From assembly GCA_902790475.1 (NCBI GenBank), contig CADASG010000030.1, positions 1 to 43,315 of the forward strand: DNA of 43,315 nucleotides, in the 5' to 3' direction. Below are positions 2,152-32,766 of the stretch, piece by piece (position 1 is the stretch's first letter; each line of letters begins with the position of its first letter). Position numbers and translations under genes: made by a program. Source of the DNA: an uncultured Ruminococcus sp. Lineage in GTDB: Bacteria > Bacillota > Clostridia > Oscillospirales > Acutalibacteraceae. Under the pieces are notes generated by a model that saw only the letters and a list, made by a program, of their open reading frames with translations, ran no database searches and was not told the origin of the DNA.

Positions 2152-2928
2152 ATGAAAATCACATCTATCGTTGAAAACACATCATGCTGCGAAGAGATCG
2201 GCTGTGAGCACGGTTTGTCTCTTCTTATCGAAACAAATGAACACAAAATATTGTTTGATATGGGACAGACCGATTTATTTGCCGAAAACGCGGAAAAACT
2301 CGGTATCGACTTAAAGGATGTAGATATCGCGGTGCTGTCGCACGGTCATTACGACCACGGCGGCGGCTTGAAACGCTTTTTGGAGCTTAACCGAAAAGCA
2401 CCGGTTTTTCTTAACCGACACGCCTTTGAGCCGCATTACAACGGCACGGAAAAATACATCGGACTGAACACGGAGCTGCAGGACAGCGAACGCCTGATTT
2501 TTACCGGCGAGGAGTTTCATATCGACGATGGCTTGACGCTGTACGCCTGCAACCAAAAGCCAAAGCGGTTTGAGATCAACCCGGACAATCTGAACGTGTT
2601 AAAAGACGGAAAATTTGTCGCGGAGGATTTTTGCCACGAGCAATACCTGATGATAGAGGAAAACGGCAAAAGGGTGCTTGTCAGCGGCTGCTCGCATAAA
2701 GGCATACTAAACCTGACAGATTGGTTTCAGCCCGACGTGCTGTTGGGAGGGTTCCACTTTATGAAGATCACCGATGAAAAAATGCTGACAGACTGCGCCC
2801 GTCGGCTTGATTCTTTCCCCACGGAGTTTTACACCTTCCACTGCACGGGAACAGAACAGTTCAGACTTATGGAACCGCACATGCAGCGGCTGCATTACCT
2901 TTCCGCAGGGCAGACAGTTACTATTTGA
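2152..2928 (+). CDS. MBL-fold metallo-hydrolase (dihydropterin-type)
   Basis: A 258-residue metallo-beta-lactamase-fold protein. The metal signature H64-G-H66-Y-D68-H69 is present in LSHGHYDHGGG, and later histidines (H182 in SGCSHKG, H202 in GGFHF, H230 in TFHCTG) fit the remaining metal ligands. The overall pattern resembles the archaeal/bacterial proteins annotated as 7,8-dihydropterin-6-methyl-4-(beta-D-ribofuranosyl)-aminobenzene-5'-phosphate synthase, but the real substrate is unknown. Translation starts after GAGGGTGAAAT. It sits just downstream of a terminator and ends before a strong bidirectional terminator, so it is probably weakly expressed or has its own unrecognised promoter. 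Confidence 0.8.
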   Translation: MKITSIVENTSCCEEIGCEHGLSLLIETNEHKILFDMGQTDLFAENAEKLGIDLKDVDIAVLSHGHYDHGGGLKRFLELNRKAPVFLNRHAFEPHYNGTEKYIGLNTELQDSERLIFTGEEFHIDDGLTLYACNQKPKRFEINPDNLNVLKDGKFVAEDFCHEQYLMIEENGKRVLVSGCSHKGILNLTDWFQPDVLLGGFHFMKITDEKMLTDCARRLDSFPTEFYTFHCTGTEQFRLMEPHMQRLHYLSAGQTVTI

Positions 2929-16242: not shown

Positions 16243-17712
16243 TTAAAGATTGCTGTATCCCATCAAATCCTCGTCCGTCTCCTTTGCGCAGTCAACGCCC
16301 TCTCTTATGGCGCGGACAACAAGGGACTGACCTGTATGCATATCGCCTGCCGTGTAAACGTTCGGGACATTTGTGCGGTGGGAGTTTTTCTCCGACGCTA
16401 CGTTGGAACGGTTGTCGGTATCGACGCCGAACGCCTTTGTAATATAGCTCTCGCTGCCGAGGAAGCCTGCTGCGATAAGTACAAGCTGAGCCTCCACCTC
16501 GGTTTCGCTGCCCTCTACGGGAGTCATCCTGCCGTTTTCGCCGCGTTCAAGCTTTATGAGTACCGCGCCGCGAAGGTTGCCGTTTTCATCCTTTAGAAAC
16601 TCCTTTACGGTTGTTTGATATACTCTCGGGTCGCTTCCGTAGACTGCCGCTGCTTCCTCCTGACCGTAATCGGTCTTGCAGACGCGCGGCCACTCCGGCC
16701 ACGGGTTGTTTTCGCTTCTTTGGTCGGGCAGCTTGGGCATCATCTCAAGCTGGAGCACGCTTTTTGCGCCGTGACGCACGCAGGTGCCCACACAGTCGTT
16801 GCCCGTGTCGCCGCCGCCTATCACGATTACCGCCTTGTCCTTTGCGGAAATGAACGTTCCGTCTTCCAAGCCGTTGTCGAGCAGGGCTTTGGTGGTCGAT
16901 TTCAGGAAATCCACCGCAAAATAAATACCCTTCGCTTCACGGCCGTTCACCTTGATATCGCGTGGATTCGACGCGCCGCAGGCGAGAATGATCCTGTCGA
17001 AATTCTCTTTTAATTCTTCTGCGGAAATATCTTTGCCCACATCGGTGTCGGTGACAAATACGACGCCTTCCTCGCTCATAACTTTTATTTTGCGTTCGAC
17101 GATCTGTTTTTCGAGCTTCATATTAGGGATCCCGTACATCAGCAAGCCGCCGATCCTGTCGCTGCGCTCAAAGACCGTGACGCTGTGTCCTCTGCGGTTG
17201 AGCAGATCCGCCGCCGCAAGTCCCGAAGGTCCCGAGCCGATGACCGCCACGCGCTTTCCCGTGCGCGTTTTCGGCGGATTGGGCACAGCCAAGCCCTCGG
17301 TGTAGGCGTTCTCGATAATGCTGTATTCATTTGCTCTGACGGTGACGGCTTCGCCGTTAGCGCCGCAGGTGCAGACTTTTTCGCATAAAGCCGGACAGAC
17401 ACGCGAGGTGAACTCAGGGAATGGATTGGTCAGCTTCAACCGGCTGTACGCCTGTTTCCACGCGCCCATGCTGACCAAATAATTCCACTCGGGAATTAAA
17501 TTATTTAACGGACAGCCTGATATCATTCCGTTGATTGCCATTCCGGACTGACAGAACGGCACTCCGCAGTTCATACATCTCTCGCCCTGTCTGCGCTGTT
17601 CAGTTTCGGAGAGAGGAGTGTGGAATTCGTCGTAGTTGGTGATTCTCTTGAACACATCATCCGCAGGCGCGTCCTGCCTTGCGTATTCCATAAATCCAAA
17701 GGGATTGTTCAT
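16243..17712 (-). CDS. gltD: Glutamate synthase small subunit
   Basis: NAD(P)H-dependent FAD subunit that passes electrons to GltB. A 489-residue protein. N-terminal cysteine clusters (RCMNCGVPFC, SGCPLNN and CPALCEKVCTCG) bind the iron-sulfur centres. The FAD loop is VIGSGPSGLAAADLL and the NAD(P)H loop is VIGGGDTGNDCVG. It begins immediately after gltB (TAAATG), so the two subunits should be made in equal amounts. Confidence 0.96.
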   Translation of the reverse strand: MNNPFGFMEYARQDAPADDVFKRITNYDEFHTPLSETEQRRQGERCMNCGVPFCQSGMAINGMISGCPLNNLIPEWNYLVSMGAWKQAYSRLKLTNPFPEFTSRVCPALCEKVCTCGANGEAVTVRANEYSIIENAYTEGLAVPNPPKTRTGKRVAVIGSGPSGLAAADLLNRRGHSVTVFERSDRIGGLLMYGIPNMKLEKQIVERKIKVMSEEGVVFVTDTDVGKDISAEELKENFDRIILACGASNPRDIKVNGREAKGIYFAVDFLKSTTKALLDNGLEDGTFISAKDKAVIVIGGGDTGNDCVGTCVRHGAKSVLQLEMMPKLPDQRSENNPWPEWPRVCKTDYGQEEAAAVYGSDPRVYQTTVKEFLKDENGNLRGAVLIKLERGENGRMTPVEGSETEVEAQLVLIAAGFLGSESYITKAFGVDTDNRSNVASEKNSHRTNVPNVYTAGDMHTGQSLVVRAIREGVDCAKETDEDLMGYSNL

Positions 17713-20700
17713 TTAGCTCTCCTCCTGTCTTAAATGAATCAGCTGATAAAATGCTTCTATGCGCGACTGCTCGGGCGTCATGCCGCGGTACTCGTTTTGC
17801 TCTATCGCTGTGGTGATTATCTTGTAATCGTGCGGAATAACCTTTTTGAACAGCCGCAGATAATCCTCAAAACGGCTGAGGATGCGCTTGCCCTTTTCGC
17901 TGCCCGTAGCGGCGACATGCTCTTCAATCATAGCCTTCAGCTCGTTGATGTCGCGCTGTTCGGTGACCTCGGCACACTCAACCAGCTCCTTGTTGAGCCG
18001 CTTGTAGAGGTGGTGATGCTCGTCAAACACATAAGCCACGCCGCCTGACATACCTGCCGCGAAGTTTTTGCCTGTGCGTCCCAAAATGACGACCTTGCCG
18101 CCTGTCATGTATTCGCAGCCGTGCTCTCCTACGCCCTCGACAACAGCGGTCGCGCCGGAGTTGCGCACGCAGAAGCGCTCGCCTGCAACGCCGTTGATAA
18201 AGGCTTTGCCGCTTGTCGCGCCGTACAGCGCCACGTTGCCGACGATAATGTTTTCCTCTGCTTTGAATCGGCTTCCCTTGGGAGGATAGACGATAAGCTT
18301 TCCGCCCGAAAGACCCTTGCCGAAATAGTCGTTTGAATCACCCTTCAATTCAAGAGTCAAACCCTTGGGGATAAACGCGCCGAAGCTCTGACCGCCCGAA
18401 CCGTCGCAGATGATCTTGTAGGTATCGTCCGCAAGGTTTTCTCCGTATTTTTTGGTGATTTCGGAGCCGAACGCGGTACCGAGCGAACGGTCGGTATTCC
18501 TGACGCTGATTTCAATGGTCTTTGCCTCTCCCGACTGAAAGGCTTTTTTCAGCTTACGCTCGATGACCTTTTCGTCAATGGTATCCGCAAGCTTGAAATC
18601 ATAGGTATTTTTATTTGTATATGAGATCTTTTCGCCTGCAAAATCAGTACTGAACAAAACCGATAAATCAATTTTGCTCTCGCGCTCGCCGCGTTTCAGC
18701 AAATCGGTTCTTCCGACCAATTCATCGACCGTGCGAACGCCTAATCTTGCCATATATTCACGCAGCTCCTGCGCGATAAAGAGCATGAAATTCACCACAT
18801 ACTCGGGCTTGCCGGCAAAGCGTTTTCTTAACTCGGGGTTCTGTGTCGCTACGCCGAAGGGACAGGAGTCCAGATTGCAAACGCGCATCATCGCGCAGCC
18901 GAGAGTCACAAGCGGAGCTGTGGCAAAGCCGAACTCCTCGGCGCCGAGGATGGCTGCGATCGCGACGTCGCGACCTGTCATCAGCTTGCCGTCGGTCTCG
19001 ATCACGACCTTGTCGCGCAGACCGTTGAGAATAAGCGTGCGGTGAGCCTCGGCAAGTCCCAGCTCCCACGGGAGTCCTGCGTTATAGATGGAGCTGCGCG
19101 GAGCCGCGCCCGTGCCGCCGTCATAGCCTGAGATCAGTATAACCTCAGCGCCTGCTTTCGCAACGCCTGCCGCTACAGTGCCTACGCCCGCTTCCGAAAC
19201 GAGCTTGACGGAGATCCTCGCCTTTTTGTTGGCGTTTTTCAGGTCGTAAATGAGCTGCGCCAAATCCTCGATAGAGTATATATCATGGTGCGGCGGCGGT
19301 GAGATCAGCGACACGCCGGGAGTGGAGTGACGGGTTTTTGCTATCCACGGATAGACCTTGTTGCCGGGCAGATGACCGCCCTCTCCGGGCTTTGCGCCCT
19401 GAGCCATTTTGATTTGAAGCTCGTCGGCGGAATTGAGATACTCAGAGGTCACGCCGAAGCGTCCCGAAGCGACCTGCTTTATCGCAGAACAACGGTTCTC
19501 GGTCTTGCCCTTTGTGGCTATTCTCTCGGGGTTTTCGCCGCCCTCGCCTGAGTTTGACTTGCCGCCGAGACGGTTCATCGCGACCGCGAGCGCCTCGTGC
19601 GCTTCCTGAGAAATCGAGCCGTAGCTCATAGCGCCGGTCTTGAATCTGCGCACGATGCTGTCAACGCTCTCTACCTCGTCGAGCGGAACGGGCTCGTCAG
19701 GGTAATTGAAATCGAGCAGTCCGCGCAGACTGACGGGATCCATTTCCTCGGTCAGCATACGGCTGTATTCCTTGAATTTTTCATAATCATTCGTTTTTGT
19801 CGCCGATTGAAGGGCGTGGATTGTCTGCGGATTATAGAGGTGCTTCTCCTTGCCGCTGCGAAGCTTATGACCGCCGCGCGAAGGCAGGTCGGAATTCACG
19901 GCAAGTCCCAGCGGATCAAACGCGGCTGTGTGAAGGTCGTCGTTGTTTTGCTCCACATCCTCAAGCGAGATGCCTCCGATGCGGCTTACAGTGCCGGTAA
20001 AGTATTCGTCGATCAGCTCCCTGCCCAAACCGATGGCTTCAAAATTCTTTGAACCCAAATATGATTGCAGGGTAGAAATGCCCATTTTGGAAGCGATCTT
20101 CACAATGCCGTGAAGCACCGCGTCATTGTAGTCGTTGACGGCGGCGTAGTAGTCCTTATCGAGCAGATCGTCGTGGATCAGCTCGTGGATGGTTTCGTGA
20201 ACCAGATACGGATTCACAGCGCTCGCGCCGTAGGCTAAGAGCGTCGCGAAATGGTGGACCTCACGCGGCTCGCCGCTCTCTAAAACTATGGAGAGCGAAG
20301 TCCTCTTTTTAGTCGCTACCAAATGCTGATGAAGTGCGGAAACCGCCAGCAGCGAGGGAACAGCCAAATGGTTTTCGTCCACTCCCCTGTCAGAGAGGAT
20401 AAGGATATTCGCGCCGTTCGCGCACGCCTTGTCCGCCTCGACGAACAGCCGCTTTACGGCTTTTGACAGCTTTGTGTTTTTATAGTAAAGGATCGGTATC
20501 TCCGCGACCTTAAAGCCCGAAAGCTTCATTTTTTTGAGCTTCAAAAGACCCGTTGAGGTAAGAATGGGATTGCGAACCTTGATCACCTTGCAGTTTTCGG
20601 GTCTTTCCTCCAAAAGATTGCCGTCGCTGCCTATATAAATAGTTGTGGAGGTCACGATCTCCTCGCGTATCGCGTCGATCGGGGGATTTGTGACCTGCGC

Positions 20701-22275
20701 AAAGCTCTGCTTGAAGTAGTCAAACAGCGGCTGAGGCTGCTTTGAAAGCACGGCAAGGGGTTTGTCGCTGCCCATCGCGGCTATCGGCTCCGCGCCGTTC
20801 TTCGCCATAGGCAGGATAGTTGTCATCACGTCCTCGTATGTGTAGCCGAAAGCTTTTTGCAGTCTGCGTTTTTCGGGGCGCGCGTGCTCCTCTACCTTGG
20901 TGTTGGGCACTTTCAGGTACTTTAGCCTCGTAAGATTCGCGTCCAGCCACTCGCCGTAGGGCTGCCGCGAAGCGTAGCTCATTTTGATTTCCTCATCGTC
21001 GATAAGCCGTCCGTGAACGGTATCGACCAAAAGCATTTTGCCGGGGTGCAGGCGCTCCTTTTTAACGATTTTTTCGGGAGGGACAGGAAGCGCACCGACC
21101 TCGGAGGACAGGATCAGATTGCCGTCGTCGGTGATATAGTATCTTGACGGTCTTAAACCGTTGCGGTCGAGCACCGCGCCCATCACATCGCCGTCGGAAA
21201 AGAGAATAGAAGCCGGACCGTCCCACGGCTCCATCATCGTAGCGTAGTACTGATAGAAATCGCGCTCCTTTTGAGGCATGGCGTGGTTGTTGTCCCACGG
21301 CTCGGGAATGGTTATCATCACGGCAAGCGGAAGATCCATTCCGCTCATCGTCAGGAATTCAAGCGTATTGTCCAGCCGCGCGGAGTCGCTTCCGTCGGGG
21401 TTCATAACGGGCAGCACCTTGTCCATATCGCCCATAAGCTGTTCGCTCGCCATGTTTTCTTCACGGGCAAGCATTTTGTCGCTGTTTCCTCTGATAGTGT
21501 TGATCTCGCCGTTGTGTACTATCATACGGTTGGGGTGAGCCTTCTGCCAGCTCGGGAAGGTATTGGTCGAAAAACGGGAGTGGATCAGCGCGATAGCCGA
21601 TTCATACGCTTCGTCCTGCAGATCGAGATAGAATTTTCTGAGGTCGCCGACAAGGAACATTCCCTTGTAAACGATAGTACGGCTCGAAAGCGAGACAACA
21701 TATGTATCCTCGTTGCTCTGCTCAAACAGGCGGCGAGCCACATAGAGCTTGCGGTCAAAATCAATGCCGCGCTGCACGCCCTCGGGTCGGTTGATGAAGC
21801 ACTGCATTATATGGGGCATACATTCGAGCGCCTTGGCGCCCAGAACCTGCGGATCACACGGTACCTCGCGCCATGCCGAAACCTTAACTCCTTCTTTTTC
21901 GGCGATTATCTCAAACATCTTTTTCGCCTGATTACGGCGCAGCTCGTTCTGCGGAAAGAAAAACATGCCCACTGCGTAATCGCGTTCGCTGCGAATGGGA
22001 ATATTTAGTGATTTTGCAGCTTTGGAAAAGAATTTATGCGAAATCTGCAACATAATGCCCACGCCGTCGCCTGTTTTTCCCTCGGCGTCTTTTCCGGCTC
22101 GGTGCTCTAAGGTTTCTACTATCGTAAGAGCGTTCTCAACAGTCGCGTGGGAGCGTATTCCCTTGATATTTACTACCGCTCCGATACCGCAGTTGTCATG
22201 CTCAAACGCGGGTGAATACAGTGAGTTTTTCATTATCTGCTCTCTTTTGCGCTCGCTGTTGTCTGCAAAAGGCAT
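17713..22275 (-). CDS. gltB: Glutamate synthase large subunit
   Basis: Transfers the glutamine amide to 2-oxoglutarate to make two glutamates. I start at 22275, with GGAAAGGA eight bases upstream, giving about 1520 residues. Longer in-frame versions would run into the promoter. The mature N-terminal nucleophile is Cys29 in HDNCGIGAV, so about 28 residues would be removed as a propeptide, as in other GltB proteins. The amidotransferase, central, FMN-binding synthase (GEGGENPER; CNLDSCPFG cysteines for the 3Fe-4S cluster) and C-terminal GXGXG beta-helix domains follow in order. An alternative start is MKNS at 22233. Confidence 0.96.
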   Translation of the reverse strand: MPFADNSERKREQIMKNSLYSPAFEHDNCGIGAVVNIKGIRSHATVENALTIVETLEHRAGKDAEGKTGDGVGIMLQISHKFFSKAAKSLNIPIRSERDYAVGMFFFPQNELRRNQAKKMFEIIAEKEGVKVSAWREVPCDPQVLGAKALECMPHIMQCFINRPEGVQRGIDFDRKLYVARRLFEQSNEDTYVVSLSSRTIVYKGMFLVGDLRKFYLDLQDEAYESAIALIHSRFSTNTFPSWQKAHPNRMIVHNGEINTIRGNSDKMLAREENMASEQLMGDMDKVLPVMNPDGSDSARLDNTLEFLTMSGMDLPLAVMITIPEPWDNNHAMPQKERDFYQYYATMMEPWDGPASILFSDGDVMGAVLDRNGLRPSRYYITDDGNLILSSEVGALPVPPEKIVKKERLHPGKMLLVDTVHGRLIDDEEIKMSYASRQPYGEWLDANLTRLKYLKVPNTKVEEHARPEKRRLQKAFGYTYEDVMTTILPMAKNGAEPIAAMGSDKPLAVLSKQPQPLFDYFKQSFAQVTNPPIDAIREEIVTSTTIYIGSDGNLLEERPENCKVIKVRNPILTSTGLLKLKKMKLSGFKVAEIPILYYKNTKLSKAVKRLFVEADKACANGANILILSDRGVDENHLAVPSLLAVSALHQHLVATKKRTSLSIVLESGEPREVHHFATLLAYGASAVNPYLVHETIHELIHDDLLDKDYYAAVNDYNDAVLHGIVKIASKMGISTLQSYLGSKNFEAIGLGRELIDEYFTGTVSRIGGISLEDVEQNNDDLHTAAFDPLGLAVNSDLPSRGGHKLRSGKEKHLYNPQTIHALQSATKTNDYEKFKEYSRMLTEEMDPVSLRGLLDFNYPDEPVPLDEVESVDSIVRRFKTGAMSYGSISQEAHEALAVAMNRLGGKSNSGEGGENPERIATKGKTENRCSAIKQVASGRFGVTSEYLNSADELQIKMAQGAKPGEGGHLPGNKVYPWIAKTRHSTPGVSLISPPPHHDIYSIEDLAQLIYDLKNANKKARISVKLVSEAGVGTVAAGVAKAGAEVILISGYDGGTGAAPRSSIYNAGLPWELGLAEAHRTLILNGLRDKVVIETDGKLMTGRDVAIAAILGAEEFGFATAPLVTLGCAMMRVCNLDSCPFGVATQNPELRKRFAGKPEYVVNFMLFIAQELREYMARLGVRTVDELVGRTDLLKRGERESKIDLSVLFSTDFAGEKISYTNKNTYDFKLADTIDEKVIERKLKKAFQSGEAKTIEISVRNTDRSLGTAFGSEITKKYGENLADDTYKIICDGSGGQSFGAFIPKGLTLELKGDSNDYFGKGLSGGKLIVYPPKGSRFKAEENIIVGNVALYGATSGKAFINGVAGERFCVRNSGATAVVEGVGEHGCEYMTGGKVVILGRTGKNFAAGMSGGVAYVFDEHHHLYKRLNKELVECAEVTEQRDINELKAMIEEHVAATGSEKGKRILSRFEDYLRLFKKVIPHDYKIITTAIEQNEYRGMTPEQSRIEAFYQLIHLRQEES

Positions 22276-22318
22276 AAAACCAATCCTTTCCGGTTTTGCA
22301 GGAATTCGTCTTTGATTC

Positions 22319-22480
22319 TGCAAATTTATTACAGCTACCATTATATAACCGAGATCCGGAGTTGTCAATAGCTAATTTGCAGTTTTTTGAACCTGATAAT
22401 TCAATTTTGCTGCAAAATTACGTTAAACAGCCGAGAAATTATTGTAAATTTTGCAAGAAACAAAAAAAATAATGCAAAAT
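22319..22480. promoter_or_regulatory. Cluster of AATTTTGCA-type motifs between gltB and glnA
   Basis: The divergent region holds a perfect inverted repeat AATTTTGC-T-GCAAAATT (22403-22419), plus TGCAAATTT (22319-22327), AATTTGCAG (22374-22382), AATTTTGCA (22447-22455) and TGCAAAAT (22473-22480). They lie around both promoters, as operators of a shared nitrogen regulator might. The regulator is unknown and the AT-rich setting makes chance matches possible. Confidence 0.45.
22340..22368 (-). promoter_or_regulatory. Promoter of gltB
   Basis: On the minus strand TTGACA (22363-22368), 17 bases, TATAAT (22340-22345): full consensus. The leader to the gltB start is about 58 bases. It is divergent from the glnA promoter, 115 bases away. 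Confidence 0.9.
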
Positions 22481-22483
22481 CAC

Positions 22484-22512
22484 TTGACAAACCTTCTTCA
22501 TTGCGCTATAAT
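22484..22512 (+). promoter_or_regulatory. Promoter of glnA
   Basis: TTGACA (22484-22489), 17 bases, TATAAT (22507-22512): full consensus. The expected start is near 22519, only about 11 bases before a terminator-like hairpin. Confidence 0.9.
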
Positions 22513-22529
22513 GACGCCAATGACACAGC

Positions 22530-22571
22530 AAAGGCGCCGGTGCAAAAAGCCATCGGTGCCTTTTGTTTTTG
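22530..22571 (+). terminator. Leader terminator upstream of glnA
   Basis: AAAGGCGCCGGTG pairs over 13 bases (two G-U pairs) with CATCGGTGCCTTT, followed by TGTTTTTG. It lies between the glnA promoter and the glnA ribosome site, so glnA transcription should be attenuated unless something prevents folding. Confidence 0.75.
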
Positions 22572-22598
22572 TCAAAAGCACACAGAGGAGAGATCATT

Positions 22599-24686
22599 AT
22601 GACAAAGGTTCCCGAATTGTTCGGCAGCATGGTATTCAGCGACAAGGTTATGCGCGAACGCCTGCCGAAGGCTACTTACAAAACTTTAAAGAAAACCGTT
22701 GAGAACGGCGAGCCGCTTGACGAGGGCGTGGCTAACGTTGTGGCGAACGCCATGAAGGATTGGGCGGTCGAGCTCGGAGCGACTCACTTTACCCACTGGT
22801 TCCAGCCGATGACCGGAGTTACCGCAGAAAAGCACGACAGCTTTATCCAGCCCTGCGGCGACGGCGTTATTATGGAATTCTCGGGCAAGGAGCTCATCAA
22901 GGGCGAGCCCGACGCGTCCAGCTTCCCGTCCGGCGGCATCCGCGCAACCTTTGAGGCTCGCGGCTACACCACCTGGGATCCGACTTCACCCGCCTTTGTA
23001 CGCGACGGTTCATTATACATCCCCACCGCATTCTGTTCCTATACGGGCGAGGTGCTCGATAAAAAAACGCCCCTGCTGCGTTCAATGGAACGGCTCAGCG
23101 CAGAGGCTGTAAAGGTTCTGCATTTGCTCGGCAAAACAGATGTGACGCGCGTATCCACCACGGTCGGTCCCGAACAGGAATACTTCTTGATCGACAAAGA
23201 TCTTTATAATCAGCGCGTTGACTTAAAGATGACAGGCAGAACACTGTTCGGCGCAAAAGCGCCTAAGGGTCAGGAGCTTGAGGATCATTACTTCGGCACC
23301 ATTAAAACACGCGTAGCCGCTTACATGAGAGATTTGGATGAGGAGCTGTGGAAGCTCGGCATCCTCGCCAAGACAAAGCACAATGAGGTCGCGCCGTCCC
23401 AGCATGAGCTGGCGCCGATCTTCTCCACCTCCAACATTGCAACGGATCACAATGAGCTTACAATGGAACTTATGCAGAGGGTCGCGGAACGCCACGATTT
23501 GGTTTGTCTGCTTCACGAAAAGCCATTTAAGGGAGTAAACGGATCGGGAAAGCACAACAACTGGTCGATCTCCACCAATACAGGCGAAAACCTGCTTGAC
23601 CCCGGAAAGAGCCCCGAGAACAACACACAGTTTTTGCTGTTCCTCGCTGCTGTTGTCAAGGCTGTTGACGAGTATCAGGATCTGCTTAGGATCACCGTGG
23701 CTTCCGCCGGCAACGACCACCGTCTCGGCGCTAACGAAGCGCCTCCGGCTATCATCTCCATGTACCTCGGCGACGATCTGGACGCGCTGGTACACTCCAT
23801 CATCAACGGAGAGGATTATCACAGCCACAAGGCTTCACGTATGCAGACCGGCGTTGACGTGCTTGCAGATTTCAAAAAGGATAATTCCGACCGCAACCGC
23901 ACCTCACCCTTTGCATTTACGGGCAACAAGTTTGAGTTCCGCGCGCTCGGTTCCTCACTGAACATCGGCTGCCCCAACTACATGCTCAACACAATGGTAG
24001 CCGAGGAGCTTTCACAGTTCTATGAAGCTCTGAAAGATGCTGAGGATTTGGACGCTGCTATCAAGGAGCTTATCAAGAAAACCCTGACCGCTCATCAGAG
24101 GATCATCTTCAACGGCGACAACTATTCGGAAGAGTGGGTAAAGGAAGCCGAAAGCAGAGGCTTGCTTAACATGAAGACCCTGCCCGAAGCATTTGACAAA
24201 TTCCTCGATAAAAAGAATATCGAGCTGTTTGTTAAAAACAATATTTATTCGGAAGAAGAGCTTCGCGCACGCTGCGAGATCGAGTTTGAGATGTACGCAA
24301 AGCAGATCAACATCGAGGGTCTGACTATGGAACAGATGGCGCGCCGTGACATCATCCCGGCAGTATCTGAGTATATCCGCGAGCTCGCCGATACCGCAGC
24401 AGTTAAGAAAGCGGTCTCACCTGCGATCCCGGTCAAGACCGAGGAAAAGCTCATCACCGAGCTTTCCGGTTTGCTGGATAAATTCTCAGTGCTGACCGAC
24501 GAGCTGACCGAAAAGGTAAAAACCGCGTCCTCGATCTCCGATACGCAGCAGGAAGCGCATTACTATCAGGAAGAGGTCATCGCGAAAATGAACGAGCTGC
24601 GCGAGATCGGCGACAAAATGGAGACCGAGACCGCAAGGAATTTCTGGCCTTATCCCAGCTACACCGACTTGTTGTTCGGCGTATAA
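22599..24686 (+). CDS. glnA: Glutamine synthetase, type III
   Basis: ATP-dependent ligation of ammonia to glutamate. At 695 residues it is far longer than type I enzymes and matches the GlnN (type III) family. Visible features are [59 protein letters not shown] (ATP site) and [13 protein letters not shown]. The start chosen is MTKVPELFG, with GAGGAGAG eight bases upstream. It heads a nitrogen-assimilation operon with the ammonium transporter. Type III enzymes are not known to be adenylylated, so control is probably at the leader and promoter. Confidence 0.96.
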
Positions 24687-24687
24687 C

Positions 24688-24741
24688 ACGGTTGCTTCGC
24701 CCGGCTGACCACAAAAACTCATTTGCCGGCGAAGAAACCGT
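24688..24741 (+). other. Long hairpin between glnA and amt
   Basis: ACGGTT-CTTCGC-CGGC pairs with GCCG-GCGAAG-AACCGT over 16 base pairs with small interruptions, starting two bases after the glnA stop codon. There is no T run after it. It may slow 3' decay of glnA mRNA or be a processing or binding site between the two cistrons. Confidence 0.6.
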
Positions 24742-24775
24742 CATCAGGCAATACGATAAATAAGGAGTAATCAAT

Positions 24776-26548
24776 ATGAGCGAATCTGTAAAAGAACTTG
24801 TCACTCAAATGACAAACGAACAGCTTTTTGCCGTGTGGTTTCTGATCGGCGCGGCGCTGGTATTCTGGATGCAGGCAGGCTTTGCAATGGTTGAAGCAGG
24901 CTTCACCCGAGCCAAAAACACAGGAAACATCATTATGAAAAACCTGATGGACTTCTGCATCGGCACCGTAACCTTTATTCTGATCGGCTTTGGACTGCTG
25001 ATGGGCGAGGACTTGGCAGGATTTATCGGACAGCCCGGCTTTGATCTGTTTACAGCCTACTCTGATTTCGATTTTTCAGCCTTTGTGTTCAACCTCGTAT
25101 TCTGCGCGACCACCGCGACTATCGTTTCGGGCGCAATGGCTGAACGCACCAAGTTCCTCTCCTACTGCGTTTATTCAGGCATCATTTCCGCTGTTGTTTA
25201 TCCAATCGAAGCGCACTGGATCTGGGGCGGCGGCTGGCTGAGCAGCCTCGGCTTCCACGATTTTGCCGGCTCCTGCGCTATCCACATGGTCGGCGGTATC
25301 TCCGCTCTGATCGGCGCTAAGCTCCTCGGAGCGCGTATCGGCAAATTCAAAAAGGACAAGAACGGCAACGTAACTGTAAGCGCTTTTCCCGGTCACAACA
25401 TCGCGCTCGGCGCGCTGGGCGTGTTCATCCTCTGGCTGGGCTGGTACGGATTCAACGGCGCGGCTGCCACGTCTGTTGATCAGCTCGGCTCTATTTTCCT
25501 GACGACCACCGTTTCTCCGGCGATCGCAACAGTAGTCTGCATGATCTTCACCTGGATCAAGTACGGTCATCCCGACGTGAGCATGTGTCTTAACGCGTCT
25601 TTGGCAGGACTGGTCGCTATCACCGCGGGCTGTGATGTCACCGACGCTTTCGGCGCTATCGTTATCGGCGCTGCTTCGGGTCTGCTGGTCTGCTTCGGCG
25701 TTTGGCTGCTCGACTATAAGCTTCATATTGACGACCCCGTAGGCGCTGTCGCAGTTCATATGATCAACGGCATCTGGGGTACTCTCGCGGTCGGTCTGTT
25801 CGCTACAGACTCCGCACCGGGCTACGCTATTGCCAATGCTTCCGGCAAAAAGCTTGTCGGTCTGTTCTACGGCGGCGGATTTGAACTCATGGGACTGCAG
25901 CTGACAGGCTTTGCAGCGGTTTCATTATGGACAGTCGCTACAATGACGGTCGTTTTCCTGGTCATCAGGGCGATATTCGGTTTGCGCGTCAGCCGCGAGG
26001 AAGAGATCACCGGACTCGACGCTACCGAGCACAACATGCCTTCAGCTTACGCGGGCTTCAGCATGATCCCCGAATATGTTGAGGAAGGCAGCGGAGCAGG
26101 CACGGCTGTTGTCGCCGTAAGCGGCGACACGCCTGTTGCCGAAGCTATCCCGGTAAAGAAAATGCCGACCTTTGACGAAGGCAAGCCAAAGATCAGCAAG
26201 GTCGAGATCGTGTGCAAGGAAGCTCGTCTGGAAGCTTTGAAAAACGCTATGATGGCTATCGGCATCACGGGCATGACAGTCACCCACGTACTCGGCTGCG
26301 GCGCTCAGAAGGGCAAGCCCGAATACTACCGCGGCGTTCAGATCGAGGCAAGCCTTCTCCCGAAGGTTCAGGTCGATATCGTTGTCTGCACCGTTCCCGT
26401 CGGCAAGGTAATTGAAGCCGCGAAAAAGACGCTGTACACGGGTCACATCGGCGACGGTAAAATCTTTGTTTACGATGTTGAGGACGTTATTAAAGTCAGA
26501 ACGGGACAAACCGGAATTGACGCAATGAAGAACTTTGATTCAATTTAA
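24776..26548 (+). CDS. amt: Ammonium transporter fused to a PII signalling domain
   Basis: Residues 1 to about 440 form an Amt/MEP channel with about 11 membrane helices. The paired pore histidines are in DFAGSCAIHMVGG and DDPVGAVAVHMINGIWG. After a linker of about 30 residues, residues 472-590 are a complete PII (GlnB/GlnK-like) domain. The T-loop is GAQKGKPEYYRGVQIEASLLPKV (positions 509-531), and the ATP B-loop is TGHIGDGKIFVYDVEDVIKVRTG. The residue aligned with the uridylylated Tyr51 of E. coli GlnB (RGAEY) is Ile here (RGVQI), so uridylylation is unlikely. Tethered PII presumably gates its own channel by ATP/ADP/2-oxoglutarate. The gene is downstream of glnA and ends at a strong terminator. 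Confidence 0.95.
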   Translation: MSESVKELVTQMTNEQLFAVWFLIGAALVFWMQAGFAMVEAGFTRAKNTGNIIMKNLMDFCIGTVTFILIGFGLLMGEDLAGFIGQPGFDLFTAYSDFDFSAFVFNLVFCATTATIVSGAMAERTKFLSYCVYSGIISAVVYPIEAHWIWGGGWLSSLGFHDFAGSCAIHMVGGISALIGAKLLGARIGKFKKDKNGNVTVSAFPGHNIALGALGVFILWLGWYGFNGAAATSVDQLGSIFLTTTVSPAIATVVCMIFTWIKYGHPDVSMCLNASLAGLVAITAGCDVTDAFGAIVIGAASGLLVCFGVWLLDYKLHIDDPVGAVAVHMINGIWGTLAVGLFATDSAPGYAIANASGKKLVGLFYGGGFELMGLQLTGFAAVSLWTVATMTVVFLVIRAIFGLRVSREEEITGLDATEHNMPSAYAGFSMIPEYVEEGSGAGTAVVAVSGDTPVAEAIPVKKMPTFDEGKPKISKVEIVCKEARLEALKNAMMAIGITGMTVTHVLGCGAQKGKPEYYRGVQIEASLLPKVQVDIVVCTVPVGKVIEAAKKTLYTGHIGDGKIFVYDVEDVIKVRTGQTGIDAMKNFDSI

Positions 26549-26570
26549 TTAATCACCAATATCCAAATAA

Positions 26571-26628
26571 AAAGGTTCGGTAACATGACGCTAAATCGTC
26601 TGTTACCGAACCTTTATTATAGGTTATT
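26571..26628. terminator. Terminator between amt and glmM
   Basis: AAAGGTTCGGTAACA (26571-26585) pairs perfectly with TGTTACCGAACCTTT (26601-26615), followed by ATTATAGGTTATTTTTTT. The A-rich left flank lets it serve the converging glmM transcript as well. Confidence 0.92.
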
Positions 26629-26646
26629 TTTTTGACCGCAGAGAGA

Positions 26647-27996
26647 TCATTCAGCAATATGTCCCTTTGCGCGGATCACGTCGATGACCTGATCAACGTA
26701 CTTTTCGCATTCTTCGTCGGAGCCTGCCTCAACCATTACGCGGAGAACAGGCTCGGTGCCGGATTCTCTGACAAGGATCCTGCCGTTGTCGCCCAGAGCC
26801 TTTTCGACCTTTTCTTTCTCAGCCTGAACGTCGGGATCGTTTTTCGCCTCGGGCTTGGAATGAACTCTGACGTTTTTGAGCACCTGGGGATACATTACCA
26901 TGGGAGCTGCGAGCTCGCTCATGGGCTTCTCCTTGGCAAGCATGACCTCCATCATTTTAAGAGAGGTCAAAATGCCGTCGCCGGTGGTAGCGTACTTTGA
27001 GAAGATGATATGACCGGACTCCTCGCCGCCGAGACGGTTGCCGGTATTTACCATGTTCTCATAGACATACTTGTCGCCTACGCTGGTTTTGTCATATTCG
27101 ATTCCTGCCTTGTCGAGAGCCTTGAACAAGCCGAAGTTGCTCATTATGGTGGCAACTACCTTGTTGTTAAGCAGCTTGCCTCTTTCTTTCATATAGCAGC
27201 CGTAGATATAGATGATGTGGTCGCCCGTGATGACGTTGCCCTTTTCATCTACCGCAAGGCAGCGGTCGGCGTCGCCGTCATAGGCAAAGCCGATATCCAG
27301 ACCTTTTTCAACAACAAACTTCTGCAGGTGCTCGATGTGAGTTGAGCCGCAGTCGGTATTGATATTGAAGCCGTCGGGGTTGTCGTTAATAACGTAGGTT
27401 TTTGCGCCCAGAGCATCAAATACGCCCTTTGCGATCTGCCATGCAGCGCCGTTGGCAACGTCAAGACCTACCTTTACATCCTTGAAGCTGTATTTGCTCA
27501 TGGAGATAAGGTAGCCGATATAGCGGTTACGGCCTGCCACATAGTCAACTGTTCTGCCGATATCTCCGCGCTGTGCTACGGGGATCTCGAGCTTATCGTC
27601 GATGTACTCCTCTACCTTGAGCAGAGTTTCCTCCTCCATCTTCTCGCCCTTGCTGTTGAGCAGCTTGATGCCGTTGTCGTAGAAGGGATTGTGAGAAGCA
27701 GAGATCATGATGCCGCAGTCAAAATCATCAATGCGTGTGATATAAGCAACTGAGGGAGTGGTTGTAACGTGCATAATATACGCGTCAGCGCCGCTTGCCA
27801 TCAAGCCTGTGCAAAGCGCGTACTCAAACATATAGGAGGAACGGCGTGTATCCTTGCCGATTACTACCTTAGCCTTTTTGTTTTGGTTTTCGCCGAAATA
27901 CCAGCCTAAAAAGCGTCCGATCTTAACGGCGTGCTCAAAGGTCAGGTTTTTGTTAGCCTCACCGCGAAATCCGTCGGTTCCGAAATATTTACCCAT
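26647..27996 (-). CDS. glmM: Phosphoglucosamine mutase
   Basis: Interconverts glucosamine-6-phosphate and glucosamine-1-phosphate for UDP-GlcNAc synthesis. A 449-residue protein, the normal length. The active-site serine is in MISASHNPFYDNG, the metal loop is YDGDADRC, the sugar-binding loop is GGEESGH, and the phosphate-binding loop is RESGTEPVLR. The opening GKYFGTDGFRGEAN is typical of GlmM. Its start overlaps the upstream acyltransferase stop at a single base, so it is the third gene of the nagB operon. Confidence 0.95.
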   Translation of the reverse strand: MGKYFGTDGFRGEANKNLTFEHAVKIGRFLGWYFGENQNKKAKVVIGKDTRRSSYMFEYALCTGLMASGADAYIMHVTTTPSVAYITRIDDFDCGIMISASHNPFYDNGIKLLNSKGEKMEEETLLKVEEYIDDKLEIPVAQRGDIGRTVDYVAGRNRYIGYLISMSKYSFKDVKVGLDVANGAAWQIAKGVFDALGAKTYVINDNPDGFNINTDCGSTHIEHLQKFVVEKGLDIGFAYDGDADRCLAVDEKGNVITGDHIIYIYGCYMKERGKLLNNKVVATIMSNFGLFKALDKAGIEYDKTSVGDKYVYENMVNTGNRLGGEESGHIIFSKYATTGDGILTSLKMMEVMLAKEKPMSELAAPMVMYPQVLKNVRVHSKPEAKNDPDVQAEKEKVEKALGDNGRILVRESGTEPVLRVMVEAGSDEECEKYVDQVIDVIRAKGHIAE

Positions 27997-28658
27997 TAGT
28001 CAGCCTTCCTTTCGATAACGGTGCCGCTGTTCTTGAAAATACAATTTTCGGGGATCACGCCGCGCACGCAGGAGGTGGGATAAACGCTGGAGTGTCTGCC
28101 GATAACAGTGCCGGGGTTGCAAACCGCGTTGCAGCCTACTTCAACATAGTCGCCCAGCATAGCGCCGAATTTTTTGATACCGGTTTCGATCTGCTCTGTA
28201 CCGTTGTGGACCACCACAAGCTTCTTGTCGGATTTAACGTTGGAGGTGATGGAACCTGCGCCCATGTGGGAGAAGTAACCCAGAATGGAGTCGCCTACAT
28301 AGTTATAGTGGGGAGTCTGAACGTGGTCGAACAGGATAACGTTTTTCAGCTCTACGGAGTTGCCCACTACGCAGTTGGCGCCTACCAGCGCCGAGCCGCG
28401 GATAAACGCGCCGTGGCGCACCTCGGTTTCGGGACCGATGATGCAGGGAGCGCCCAGATATGCGGAGGGAAATACTTTGGCGGTCTTGTGGACCCAAACA
28501 TTCTCCTCGCGCTGCTCATAGTCGTCGCCGAGTGTGGGACCCAGCTCAAGAATGAAATCCTTGATTCCCTTGAGCGCCTCCCACGGATAGGTGAACTTCA
28601 AAAGATAGTCCTTCGCCAAAGTGTGGTCAAGATCGTAAAGATCCTTGATAGTATACAT
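27996..28658 (-). CDS. Left-handed beta-helix acyltransferase (GlmU C-terminal-like)
   Basis: A 220-residue protein. After an N-terminal helical part of about 50 residues (YTIKDLYDLDHTLAKDYLL), a run of hexapeptide repeats follows (VFPSAYLGAPCIIG, AFIRGSALVGANCVVGNSVELKNVI). Family resemblance is to the acetyltransferase/beta-helix half of UDP-GlcNAc diphosphorylases; there is no N-terminal nucleotidyltransferase domain. Between nagB and glmM it is well placed to acetylate glucosamine-1-phosphate. That substrate is inferred from context. Adjacent overlapping starts and stops on both sides show it is part of the operon. Confidence 0.82.
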   Translation of the reverse strand: MYTIKDLYDLDHTLAKDYLLKFTYPWEALKGIKDFILELGPTLGDDYEQREENVWVHKTAKVFPSAYLGAPCIIGPETEVRHGAFIRGSALVGANCVVGNSVELKNVILFDHVQTPHYNYVGDSILGYFSHMGAGSITSNVKSDKKLVVVHNGTEQIETGIKKFGAMLGDYVEVGCNAVCNPGTVIGRHSSVYPTSCVRGVIPENCIFKNSGTVIERKAD

Positions 28659-29449
28659 TAAAGTCTCTCCTTCTTTTCAATATCGAGGAAGTATTTGTAG
28701 GTGTCTACGGTAAGCTCGCCGCAGGCAGCCTCGTCGCAGGCAATGATAGCGCCGTTGTGCATCTGAAGCGCGGAGCAGGTCCACTTGTGGCTTACGCTGC
28801 CTTCTACGGTTTCCGCAAGCGCTCTTGCCTTGTTGTGACCGTTGATCAGAATCAGAACTTCCTTGGAATCGGTAACGGTGCCTACGCCTACGGAAAGCGC
28901 CTGAGCGGGAACCGCCTCGGGATCGTTGCCGAAGAAACGGGAATTCACGATTCTGGTGTCTGTGGTCAGGTTTCTTACGCCCGTGCGTGACGCAAGGCTG
29001 GTGAACGGCTCGTTGAACGCGATGTGACCGTCAACGCCGATGCCGCCCATAAACAGGTCGATGCCGCCGTAGGAAGCGATCTTTTCCTCATATCTCGCGC
29101 ACTCGCCCTCGGGATCATCGGTCATGCCGTTCAAAATGTTGATGTTCTCGGGCTTCATATCCGTAAGGTGGTCAAAGAAGTTGTCGTGCATGAAGTACCA
29201 GTAGCTCTGGTCATGCTCGTGAGGCAGACCGAGGTATTCGTCCATGTTGAAGGTCACCACGTTGGCAAAGGACAGCTCGCCTGCCTGATTCATGGTGTAA
29301 AGCTCCTTATAAACGCCGATGGGTGAGGAACCTGTGGGCAGTCCCAGCACAAAAGGTCTGTCTTCCTTGTGATTCTTTATTTTCTGAGCGATATAGTTAG
29401 CCGCCCACTTGCACATCTTATCGTAATTGTCCTGAATAATAACTCTCAT
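28658..29449 (-). CDS. nagB: Glucosamine-6-phosphate deaminase/isomerase, possibly biosynthetic
   Basis: Interconverts fructose-6-phosphate plus ammonia and glucosamine-6-phosphate. A 263-residue protein from the ATG at 29449, with AAGGAG eight bases upstream. NagB signatures are LPTGSSPIGVY, FNMDEYLGLP and GGIGVDGHIAFNEP. NagB normally degrades amino sugars, but here the gene leads an operon with glmM and a GlmU-like acyltransferase and is preceded by a glmS ribozyme. That arrangement suggests ammonia-dependent synthesis of glucosamine-6-phosphate in place of GlmS. The enzyme family is certain; the direction is inference. Confidence 0.95.
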   Translation of the reverse strand: MRVIIQDNYDKMCKWAANYIAQKIKNHKEDRPFVLGLPTGSSPIGVYKELYTMNQAGELSFANVVTFNMDEYLGLPHEHDQSYWYFMHDNFFDHLTDMKPENINILNGMTDDPEGECARYEEKIASYGGIDLFMGGIGVDGHIAFNEPFTSLASRTGVRNLTTDTRIVNSRFFGNDPEAVPAQALSVGVGTVTDSKEVLILINGHNKARALAETVEGSVSHKWTCSALQMHNGAIIACDEAACGELTVDTYKYFLDIEKKERL

Positions 29450-29529
29450 AATACATGTCTCCTTAGGCATTTGCCCGAATACTGAAATAATGTCGGTTTC
29501 GGTGACAGGGGAACATTTGTTACAGTGTT

Positions 29530-29660
29530 GATTCTGCTTTTTCCTTTCCCTTTAACGACTCACTTCCGACGCCGAGAGGCGCCCAGCCGTGGCAGCATCC
29601 GCCGAGTCTTTCGATAACTGCCAATCCTCGTCAACCAATTACGGTCCTGGCGCTAATAGC
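29530..29660 (-). ncRNA. glmS-type self-cleaving ribozyme in the nagB leader
   Basis: On the minus strand, reading from 29654: A followed by GCGCCAGGACC, then GGTTGACGAGGATTGGCAG, TTATCGAAAGACTCGGCGGA, TGCTGCCACGGCTG and further helices. These match, in order, the glmS ribozyme core: the cleavage site before GCGCC, the GUUGACGAGG strand, the AUCGA...UCGGCGGAUG strand pair and the CGGCUG helix. GGCAG/CTGCC pairing is conserved. The predicted cut is between 29654 and 29653. The ribozyme uses glucosamine-6-phosphate as cofactor, so product accumulation should destroy this mRNA. The next gene is nagB, about 80 bases downstream of the ribozyme, not glmS. Confidence 0.93.
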
Positions 29661-29758
29661 TTCCTTTTCTCCTTTCACAGAGGCTATTTTATTGATTCGG
29701 GAAACGTCGTTTTGAAGGGGGATAACGCCGTCATTCTTCGGTTTCCGCAAACATAAAA

Positions 29759-29787
29759 ATTTTACCATACACACTGCTAAAAGTCAA
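29759..29787 (-). promoter_or_regulatory. Promoter of the nagB operon
   Basis: On the minus strand TTGACT (29782-29787), 17 bases, TAAAAT (29759-29764). The start is near 29752, giving a leader of about 300 bases, most of which is the ribozyme. Confidence 0.8.
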
Positions 29788-29876
29788 GATTTTTTTAATC
29801 ATCTGCTGCGTTAATATGTTAAAGCATTTGGTAGAACAAAGCGTGAGTTTTCGGGTCGAAAATTTATTCGATTTCC

Positions 29877-29905
29877 TTGATATTTTTTGTTTTTTGTGTT
29901 ATAAT
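29877..29905 (+). promoter_or_regulatory. Promoter of uvrA
   Basis: TTGATA (29877-29882), 17 bases, TATAAT (29900-29905). I see no GAAC-N4-GTTC LexA-type box overlapping it, so SOS control is not evident. It is divergent from the nagB promoter. Confidence 0.85.
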
Positions 29906-29943
29906 GACAACAGTGAAAATTCAACGATAGCCGAGGAAATAAT

Positions 29944-32766
29944 ATGGCACAGGATAAAATCATTGTCAGGGGTGCAAAAGAGCATAACCTGAAAAACATA
30001 GACGTGGAGATACCGCGCAACAAATTGGTTGTCATCACGGGATTGTCGGGCTCCGGCAAAAGCTCGCTGGCGTTTGACACCATATACGCCGAAGGACAGC
30101 GCCGCTATGTGGAGAGTCTCTCCAGCTACGCGCGCATGTTTTTGGGACAGATGGACAAGCCCGCCGTGGACAGCATTGAGGGACTTTCGCCCGCGATCTC
30201 CATTGACCAGAAAACCACATCAAAAAACCCGCGTTCCACCGTGGGTACCGTCACCGAGATATACGATTATCTGCGCCTGCTTTACGCGCGCATCGGCGTG
30301 CCGCACTGCCCGGTCTGCGGAAGAGAGATCCGTCAGCAGACGGTCGATCAGATAGCGGACAAGATCACCGCCTACCCCGAGGGCACCAGAATACAGGTTA
30401 TGGCGCCCGTGGTTCGCGGCAGAAAGGGAGAGCACGCCAAGGTGATCGAGAAGGCGTCAAAGTCGGGCTTTGTTCGCGCGCGCGTTGACGGGATCGTATA
30501 CGACCTGTCAGAAAAAATTCCTTTAGAGAAAAATAAAAAACACGATATTGAAATCATCGTCGATCGTCTGGTCATCAAGCCCGGCATATCCTCACGGCTT
30601 TCGGACAGCATCGAGACCGCATCAAAGCTGGGCGGCGGCCTTATCATGGTAAACCTCGGCGACGAGGACGTGATCTTTTCACAAAAATACGCCTGCCCCG
30701 AACACGGCGTCAGCATAGAGGATCTGTCGCCGCGTATGTTTTCGTTCAACAATCCCTTCGGCGCGTGTCCCAAATGTACGGGCTTAGGCGTTTTTTTGAA
30801 AATCGATGAAAATAAAGTCATTCCCGACCGCAAAAAAAGCATCCGCGACGGAGCGATCAAGGGCAGCGGATGGGCTATGGAGGGCAGCCAGATAGCCGCC
30901 ATGTATTTTGAGGCGCTGGCTGAAAAATATGGTTTTTCTCTTTCCGAGCCTGTGGAAAATATCCCCGAGGACGTCATTCAAAAAATCCTCTACGGCACAG
31001 GAGACGAATATCTGACCGTTCACCGCAAGACGGCGTACGGAAGCGGCACATATGAGCATCAGTTTGAGGGTATTATCAACAATCTCGAACGCCGATACCG
31101 CGAGAGCAGCAGCAACTGGATACGCGATGAGATCCGCTCATATATGGCTGAGATCCCCTGCGACGAATGCCGCGGAGACCGTCTGTCAAAGGAGAGCCTT
31201 GCCGTTACCGTGGGCGGTATCAATATCGCGGATCTGTGTAAAATGTCGGTTGTCGCGGCGCTCGATTTTATTTCTTCATTAGAATTAAGTGAAAAAGAAG
31301 CCATCATCGGCGAGGAGATCATAAAGGAGATAAAGGAGCGGCTGAACTTTCTTAAAAGCGTCGGTCTTGGATACCTGACGCTTTCGCGCAGCGCAGGTAC
31401 GCTCAGCGGCGGCGAAAGTCAGCGCATACGTCTGGCTACGCAAATCGGAAGCTCGCTGATGGGAGTGCTCTATATTCTGGACGAGCCGAGCATCGGTCTG
31501 CACCAGCGCGACAACGAAAAGTTGCTCGGCACGCTGAAACGTCTGCGCGATTTAGGCAACACCGTGATCGTGGTCGAGCACGACGAGGAAACCATGTACG
31601 CCGCAGACTGTATAGTTGACGTGGGACCCGGCGCGGGGATCCACGGCGGCAAGATCGTCTGCGTAGGCAGCATCGGCGATATAAAGGCATGCCGTCAAAG
31701 CGTCACGGGGCAGTATCTCAGCGGCGAACGCGCGGTGCCCGTTCCCTCCGAACGCCGCAAGGGAAACGGCAAATTTTTGGAAATACGCGGCGCTTCTCAA
31801 AACAACCTGAAAAACCTCAATGTTAAAATACCTTTAGGCAAGCTGGTTTGCGTAACGGGCGTGTCAGGCTCGGGCAAAAGCTCGCTGATAAACGAAATAT
31901 TGTATAAAACCTTGGCGCGCGAGCTGAACCGCGCAAAGACCATTCCGGGCAAATGCAAAGAAATCAGGGGCATGGAGCACCTCGACAAGGTGATAGAGAT
32001 CGACCAAAGCCCCATCGGAAGAACTCCGCGTTCCAATCCTGCCACATACACAGGGCTGTTCACCGATATACGCGCACTGTTTGCCGCTACCACCGATGCA
32101 AAAATCCGCGGCTACAGTCAGGGGCGTTTTTCGTTCAACGTCAAGGGAGGCAGATGTGAAGCGTGCCAGGGCGACGGTATCATCAAAATCGAGATGCACT
32201 TCCTCTCCGATGTGTACGTTCCCTGCGAGGTGTGCAAGGGCAAACGCTACAACCGCGAGACTCTTGAGGTGCGCTACAAGGGAAAAAATATCAGCGACGT
32301 GCTTGACATGAGCGTTGAGGAAGCTATGACCTTCTTTCAAAATCACGACAAGCTCTACCGCAGGCTCAAAACTCTGTACGACGTCGGTTTGGGATATATC
32401 AAGCTCGGTCAGCCTGCAACGACGCTGTCAGGCGGCGAGGCTCAGCGAGTCAAGCTCGCCACCGAGCTGAGCAAGCGCAGCACGGGAAAGACCATCTATA
32501 TTCTGGACGAACCGACCACGGGACTGCACATCGCCGATGTACACCGACTCACCGAGGTGCTGCAATTACTGGTCGAGGGCGGTAATACCGTAGTGGTCAT
32601 TGAGCATAACCTTGACCTGATCAAAACCGCCGATCACATCATTGATCTCGGTCCCGAGGGCGGCGACATGGGCGGACAGATCCTCGCCCAAGGCACTCCC
32701 GAACAGGTAGCAGAAAACGAAAGCTCATTCACCGGCAAGTATTTGAAACCGTTGCTGAAACAATAA
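29944..32766 (+). CDS. uvrA: Excinuclease ABC subunit A
   Basis: DNA damage-recognition ATPase of nucleotide excision repair. A 940-residue protein, normal length. Two ABC ATPase modules are seen: Walker [10 protein letters not shown] near residue 31 and [10 protein letters not shown] in the second half, with signatures [12 protein letters not shown] and [12 protein letters not shown]. Zinc modules CPVCG...CPEHG...CPKCTGLG and CEACQGDG...[10 protein letters not shown] are intact. The ribosome site is CCGAGGAA. It is not next to uvrB here; it stands alone and ends in its own terminator. Confidence 0.98.

Follow-up and report, generated by a model that had tools for sequence, protein, structure and literature searches.

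A glmS ribozyme stands directly before nagB, not glmS, in a 43,315-nucleotide stretch of DNA from an uncultured Ruminococcus sp. (contig CADASG010000030.1, referred to here as the window), at the head of what is probably one transcript of nagB, an acetyltransferase gene and glmM. The reading we consider likely is that NagB works here in the aminating direction, opening the route to UDP-GlcNAc, and that cleavage triggered by glucosamine-6-phosphate (GlcN6P) shuts the ribozyme-headed operon off.

The ribozyme and the gene row behind it

The features on which the argument rests follow one another along the minus strand:

29759–29787, minus strand: promoter-like sequence TTGACT-17-TAAAAT, agreeing with the consensus at 10 of 12 positions and with TG preceding the second hexamer
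29655–29688, minus strand: extra 5′ hairpin, P0 (our own name), in which AATAGC at 29688–29683 pairs with GCTATT at 29660–29655
29653–29654, minus strand: predicted scissile bond between A29654 and G29653 (A/GCGCC), from the Rfam match and the sequence
29497–29665, minus strand: full-length glmS ribozyme, RF00234, from the Rfam match, covariation and a reciprocal model
29459–29464, minus strand: AAGGAG, taken from the sequence as the probable ribosome-binding site of nagB
28658–29449, minus strand: nagB, glucosamine-6-phosphate deaminase family (open reading frame listed from 29470, likely start ATG at 29449)
27996–28658, minus strand: acetyltransferase with hexapeptide repeats, resembling the C-terminal half of GlmU, from profile matches
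26647–27996, minus strand: glmM, phosphoglucosamine mutase (540 bits, cut-off 448)

The Rfam glmS model (RF00234, gathering score 37 bits) matches the minus strand at 29665–29497 with 62.5 bits and an E value of 3.5e-12, which is the sole Rfam match of the window at the gathering threshold; RF00234 has no second match in the 2.74-Mb assembly. A preliminary description of this DNA, which proposed this covariance search, had seen an "almost complete" glmS core in the nagB leader; the ribozyme proved to be real, while the match spans model positions 1–167 of 167 and is thus full-length instead of partial. The cleavage site that it had placed before GCGCC at 29654/29653 is borne out by the sequence at the predicted cut, ...GCTATTA/GCGCC, where positions 29654 and 29653 are A and G. 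This site and the core (A/GCGCC, the GAGG of GACGAGG, ATCG and TCGGCGG) are present and invariant across 39 compared sequences (27 nagB-linked, 11 glmS-linked and one behind glmM), core bases hardly varying among the glmS ribozymes compared. Of the 35 ribozymes that the model detected, a regular expression for the core missed 15, and it also produced one false match inside glmS.

Covariation backs the nested helices, in a test for which the structure was named after inspection of the same sequences and of Rfam's line: among 18 copies from the genus, 29 nested pairs are standard in 97.5% of cells, compared with 33–52% when slid by 1–3 columns, and changes on both sides occur at 11 of these 29 pairs. 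A model trained solely on nagB-linked copies recovered, in a reciprocal test, all 11 glmS-linked ribozymes from other genera of the family sample (25.7–73.8 bits), and the Rfam threshold was passed by 14 of 15 other nagB-linked loci submitted, L181 falling below it. A chance match is ruled out by the E value, the covariation and the reciprocal model, and the window RNA is, as judged from these comparisons, a genuine glmS ribozyme under selection. Its usual place before glmS is not the one found in the window, where nagB comes next and glmS lies on another contig. Upstream, the promoter-like site is one of 10 such sites found in 26400–30000, against 3.8 expected by shuffling.

The three genes lie on the same strand with a one-base overlap between neighbours and are probably co-transcribed. 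The start of nagB had been put at 29470, which gives way to the likelier ATG at 29449, read from the sequence behind AAGGAG at 29464–29459. Its product scores 378 bits on the NCBIfam nagB model (TIGR00502, cut-off 237), and the motifs FNMDEY and DGH[IVL][AG]FNEP occur in 79 of 79 proteins; the SRTRxKT stretch of several solved NagBs, which we take to be the GlcNAc6P site, is SRTGxR in 78 of the 79 NagBs compared. A nucleotidyltransferase domain was sought in the acetyltransferase by profile match, and none matched. NagB, GlmM and the acetyltransferase would together cover the chemistry from fructose-6-phosphate to GlcNAc-1-phosphate, and the gene row suggests, on sequence grounds, a UDP-GlcNAc pathway with NagB in place of GlmS.

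Distribution of the ribozyme–nagB arrangement

The survey of related genomes that had been proposed confirmed the linkage. Among 61 genomes of the genus, 26 carry the ribozyme (25 over threshold), and exactly the same 26 have a NagB match longer than 100 residues with 92–100% identity; wherever the contigs extend far enough, nagB immediately follows a ribozyme in all 26 carriers. No ribozyme match accompanies a NagB piece of 45 residues in G153, where the contig ends inside nagB and an acetyltransferase and glmM lie behind, or one of 22 residues in G201. In G155 (L151, 2326–3062) the nagB that follows the ribozyme is divided between two reading frames.

In the wider family, sampled with stricter filters, RF00234 was found in 13 of 150 genomes, 11 times directly before glmS, once before nagB (the window genome, G000) and once behind glmM (G110). 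The model finds the ribozyme in 82 genomes of the 394 sampled from the order, and the 30 loci inspected divide into 22 before glmS, four before nagB and four before neither; two of the four before nagB belong to this genus and two to another family (G465 and G563).

A set of named genomes, mostly ruminant-gut assemblies by title, was considered through its best 80 NagB loci, 35 of which have the ribozyme (110–164 bits); this count and that from the genus are not independent, since some of the named loci are the same sequences as genus genomes. At 25 of these 35 ribozyme loci nagB, the acetyltransferase gene and glmM occur together, in three gene orders, and the other 10 consist of nagB–glmM (two), glmM–nagB–glmS (one), nagB–acetyltransferase near a contig end (one) and nagB alone (six), with 2–6 kb of sequence behind nagB at the nagB-alone loci L083, L094, L104 and L106. 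Whichever gene comes first, the ribozyme heads the cluster at 34 of the 35, the exception being L098, where glmS precedes it; glmS belongs to the cluster at four of the 35, behind the ribozyme at L089, L113 and L126 and in front of it at L098. The 45 ribozyme-less loci among the best 80 include 18 with glmM or the acetyltransferase gene beside nagB and 27 with none of glmM, acetyltransferase and glmS near it, and, where catabolic neighbours were looked for, nagA was absent among the eight neighbour genes scanned in five ribozyme-less loci. The ribozyme label is scattered over a tree of 79 NagBs, requiring 13 changes, at least three of them by well-supported branches; gain, loss or transfer of the ribozyme has therefore been repeated. 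This scatter and the ribozyme-less loci tell against the reading that we favour.

These arrangements bear on an explanation that we regard as unlikely, in which NagB is an ordinary deaminase carried along as a passenger and the ribozyme either serves glmM and the acetyltransferase gene or is left over from a glmS since lost. Sequence comparison groups the window NagB with NagBs of solved structure that are named as deaminases, and G110 has its ribozyme 3′ of glmM with no glmS behind it, both of which would suit a passenger. However, nagB survives the reshuffling of gene order, at six of the 35 ribozyme loci nagB was found without either glmM or the acetyltransferase gene, and ribozyme and NagB share the same 26 genus genomes, all of which speaks against a passenger.

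Several observations lie beside this comparison. At L111, a Clostridiales-1 RNA (RF01699, 99.5 bits; 2342–2508, plus strand) is located upstream of a ribozyme–acetyltransferase–glmM–nagB cluster. Next to the operon, positions 16243–26548 of the window hold gltB, gltD, a gene for a glutamine-synthetase-like protein (weak family matches) and one for an ammonium transporter with a P-II-like tail; these nitrogen genes were dropped as parts of the system, as only gltD recurs, at one of the best 80 loci (L094).

Aside from glmS and nagB, some ribozymes precede neither gene. Apparently free-standing copies occur on the minus strand in another family of the order (L211 5776–5930, L212 5477–5637 and L213 5635–5802, in G265, G293 and G226), each laid out as a shared, strong promoter-like TTGACA-17-TATACT, GGAGG, ribozyme and strong hairpin, with a U-rich tail clear only in L211. 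No glmS or nagB was found in the 11 kb spanning each of these three loci, each genome has a glmS over cut-off elsewhere and one ribozyme-model match, and by their sequence the three look like stand-alone GlcN6P-cut RNAs. In G280 (L214, 5353–5513, minus strand) a terminator-like hairpin and U run follow the ribozyme within about 70 bases, and the 581-residue open reading frame after the hairpin gave no glmS match. The ribozyme of G110 (L046, 6039–6190, plus strand) lies behind acetyltransferase–glmM; the next gene-sized open reading frame is on the other strand, same-strand frames past the ribozyme are small or overlap this opposite-strand frame until 7097, and glmS is on another contig, the ribozyme perhaps having been left behind by a moved glmS.

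glmS, nagA and the direction of NagB

Gene content indicates that NagB is probably biosynthetic in these bacteria, making GlcN6P. nagA is over cut-off in none of the 61 genus genomes, 31 of which show partial matches far below it; seven of 14 control genomes were over this cut-off. The window genome retains an intact glmS (775 bits, on another contig, without a ribozyme), by which the absence of glmS from this organism is ruled out and because of which NagB is not needed to explain its GlcN6P. The preliminary wording "nagB instead of glmS" consequently stands for the gene headed by the ribozyme and falls for the genome, which keeps both. By eye, the neighbours of this glmS resemble nadE and guaA, and near it lies a second glutamine-synthetase-like gene, 76% identical to that of the window.

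Other genomes differ in this respect. G465, rated 100% complete and from another family, has ribozyme–nagB and gave no glmS match; G563, the second carrier outside this family, has glmS (601 bits, profile positions 110–607). In G182 (100% complete, with ribozyme–nagB) the only glmS sequence consists of fragments in three different frames, interrupted by a stop (L221, 776–2487, contig 34), which may be a decaying gene or an assembly error, and in G206 (80% complete) the glmS matches are partial and under cut-off. A second NagB type, 38% identical, is present in four genus genomes (G165, G174, G189 and G204, 66–99% complete); it lies directly after glmM in each, and glmS does not reach the cut-off in any of them.

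A link between the two genes also appears across the family. Where nagA is lacking, nagB occurs in 16 of 18 genomes without glmS versus 11 of 53 with it (p 4e-7), whereas no such association appears in genomes with nagA (26 of 29 versus 40 of 50, p 0.35), both p values being weakened by kinship between genomes and by incomplete assemblies; full-length nagB matches just under cut-off, in G145 and G059, were scored as present. Full-length nagB is missing in five of the 47 glmS-less family genomes, a point against the biosynthetic reading. In G035 (93% complete) and G099 (83%), both of the family sample, none of glmS, nagB and nagA is over cut-off.

The passenger explanation meets these data on both sides: GlmS is intact in the window genome, but nagA is over cut-off nowhere in the genus sample and G465 makes do with no glmS match. 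It also draws on Akkermansia muciniphila, which resembles the glmS-less carriers in having NagB and lacking GlmS; its NagB formed no GlcN6P at physiological conditions (Km 41 mM for NH4 and 5.5 mM for Fru6P), the cell needs GlcNAc, and the part of that report drawn on here mentions no ribozyme (PMC5902328). The Akkermansia result and the intact glmS of the window genome both weigh against an aminating NagB. The earlier argument, that the sign of control is sensible if NagB makes GlcN6P, finds support in the gene row, in the glmS of four clusters, in the lack of nagA over cut-off in the genus sample and in G465.

A further possibility, which we hold to be quite improbable, is that NagB runs in both directions close to equilibrium and acts as a buffer while GlmS supplies most of the GlcN6P; the ribozyme would then trim NagB against a drain of GlcN6P or a waste of ammonia. 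This would accord with the 51 of 61 genus genomes, the window genome included, that have glmS over cut-off, with the 26 that have ribozyme–nagB, and with the ribozyme-less state of the window organism's glmS, yet it leaves unexplained the glmS-less carrier G465 and the broken-looking glmS of G182. An aminating NagB under product control remains the reading that we prefer.

The extra 5′ hairpin and the proposed working of the switch

In the window, the 3′ arm of P0 ends one base before the predicted scissile bond, and a Shine–Dalgarno (SD)-like AAAGGAG lies between its arms at 29675–29669. The nagB-linked leaders share the pattern TAAAAYAG...CTRTTA/GCGCC, likewise with the 3′ arm one base short of the cut. 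This hairpin was noticed in the sequences first and tested afterwards, with the 5′ arm anchored at an AAA motif, in 58 of 59 distinct leaders (L126 lacks the motif). Standard pairs fill 83% of the cells of the eight-pair hairpin, versus 41–43% when slid by 1–3 in the one direction tried, the paired cells number 384, whereas 1000 partner shuffles never gave more than 354, and pair 3 is UA in 28 leaders and CG in 24. Minimum-energy folds contain the hairpin in 47 of 61 nagB-linked leaders (19% in shuffles), in seven of 31 glmS-linked leaders (18% in shuffles) and in none of five others. RNAalifold predicted no pairs when 19 hairpin regions were aligned with MAFFT, we think because stem length varies, and an unanchored stem search was weak, with six or more pairs in 33 of 62 leaders versus 36% in shuffles.

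Between the arms, GGAGG occurs in 44 of the 59 distinct leaders, where 3.9 would be expected; the window copy is the weaker form GGAG. Downstream of the SD-like core an ATG lies at starting distance in six of 63 leaders, and ATG, GTG or TTG in 13 of 63. The nagB-linked leaders thus have an upstream SD-like sequence that does not start translation, as is the mark of a STAB-SD. Since GGAGG also falls within the final 46 bases of the leader in 11 of 31 glmS-linked copies and in four of five others, it is the hairpin and not the SD-like sequence that marks the nagB-linked group. The STAB-SD of Bacillus thuringiensis cry3A is described as binding 30S subunits and blocking RNase J1 (PMC4113751). By analogy, cleavage in nagB-linked leaders would also sever a stabiliser.

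Briefly, the favoured mechanism would run as follows. NagB would aminate fructose-6-phosphate with ammonia to GlcN6P, at the entry to UDP-GlcNAc synthesis; this product would then be taken further by GlmM and the acetyltransferase. The equilibrium of NagB favours deamination and would have to be overcome by rumen ammonia, at 5–20 mM, and by GlmM drawing off the product. Surplus GlcN6P, as the ribozyme cofactor, would make the leader cut itself before GCGCC, and the cut message with its 5′-OH end would be destroyed, so that the whole operon would be off under feedback by its product. In Bacillus subtilis, the cut glmS mRNA is removed by RNase J1 (PMC3997798). NagB would serve the window organism as an ammonia-using, glutamine-saving partner beside the glutamine-using GlmS, whereas some relatives would make GlcN6P through NagB alone.

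That cleavage instead works as an ON switch, freeing or stabilising the message by removal of the 5′ hairpin so that surplus GlcN6P induces NagB as an overflow valve, is very hard to credit: the nagB-linked hairpin footed at the cut would be removed, and glmS-linked leaders show none above chance, but glmM, the acetyltransferase gene and at some loci glmS would be induced too, senselessly for overflow, the sequence between the arms resembles a stabiliser rather than an inhibitor, the nagB start of the window lies about 200 bases downstream of the hairpin, and the glmS ribozyme of B. subtilis destabilises its own mRNA (PMC3997798). A more elaborate form of the product-control reading is put forward only tentatively, the odds being rather against it: a ribozyme subfamily with a cleavage-footed hairpin and a 30S-binding-like sequence would govern an ammonia-dependent NagB route that replaces or backs up GlmS; cleavage would both open a 5′-OH for RNase J and remove a stabiliser; and the module would have spread among families of ammonia-rich gut bacteria, letting some lose glmS.

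With the RF00234 ribozymes of B. subtilis and other Bacillota the window copy shares core, helices, cleavage motif, 5′ leader position and, by homology, the cofactor; it differs from the B. subtilis type in heading nagB–acetyltransferase–glmM and not glmS, and the nagB-linked leaders add the 5′ hairpin. Catabolic NagBs (Escherichia coli, Bacillus, Streptococcus mutans) have the same family and motifs, whereas here the gene row is biosynthetic, no nagA is over cut-off in the genus sample, and NagB is predicted to fall and not rise with amino sugar; S. mutans NagB goes up with GlcNAc (PMC3306399). A deaminase run backwards has likewise been described for GlmD-type GlcN6P deaminase in engineered yeast, where it yielded GlcN6P for glucosamine, but that system is engineered, the enzyme is another one, and the extract considered mentions no ribozyme (PMC13073038).

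The ribozyme class and the enzyme are known already; their pairing, the operon-wide control and the extra hairpin appear to be new, and a search with partial coverage of the literature turned up no report of a glmS ribozyme on nagB, of operon-wide control or of the extra hairpin. The 2011 survey of McCown et al. reportedly placed all but two of 463 glmS ribozyme copies in glmS mRNAs, and those two exceptions may or may not be of the nagB kind. The direction of the reversible NagB has been called ambiguous (PMC5902328). The ribozyme offers a natural label for the direction of such a reversible enzyme, because the same sensor marks NagB as a probable maker of GlcN6P. The targets of glmS-ribozyme activators would widen, and the idea that NagB is the sole entry to peptidoglycan in some bacteria of ammonia-rich guts becomes testable.
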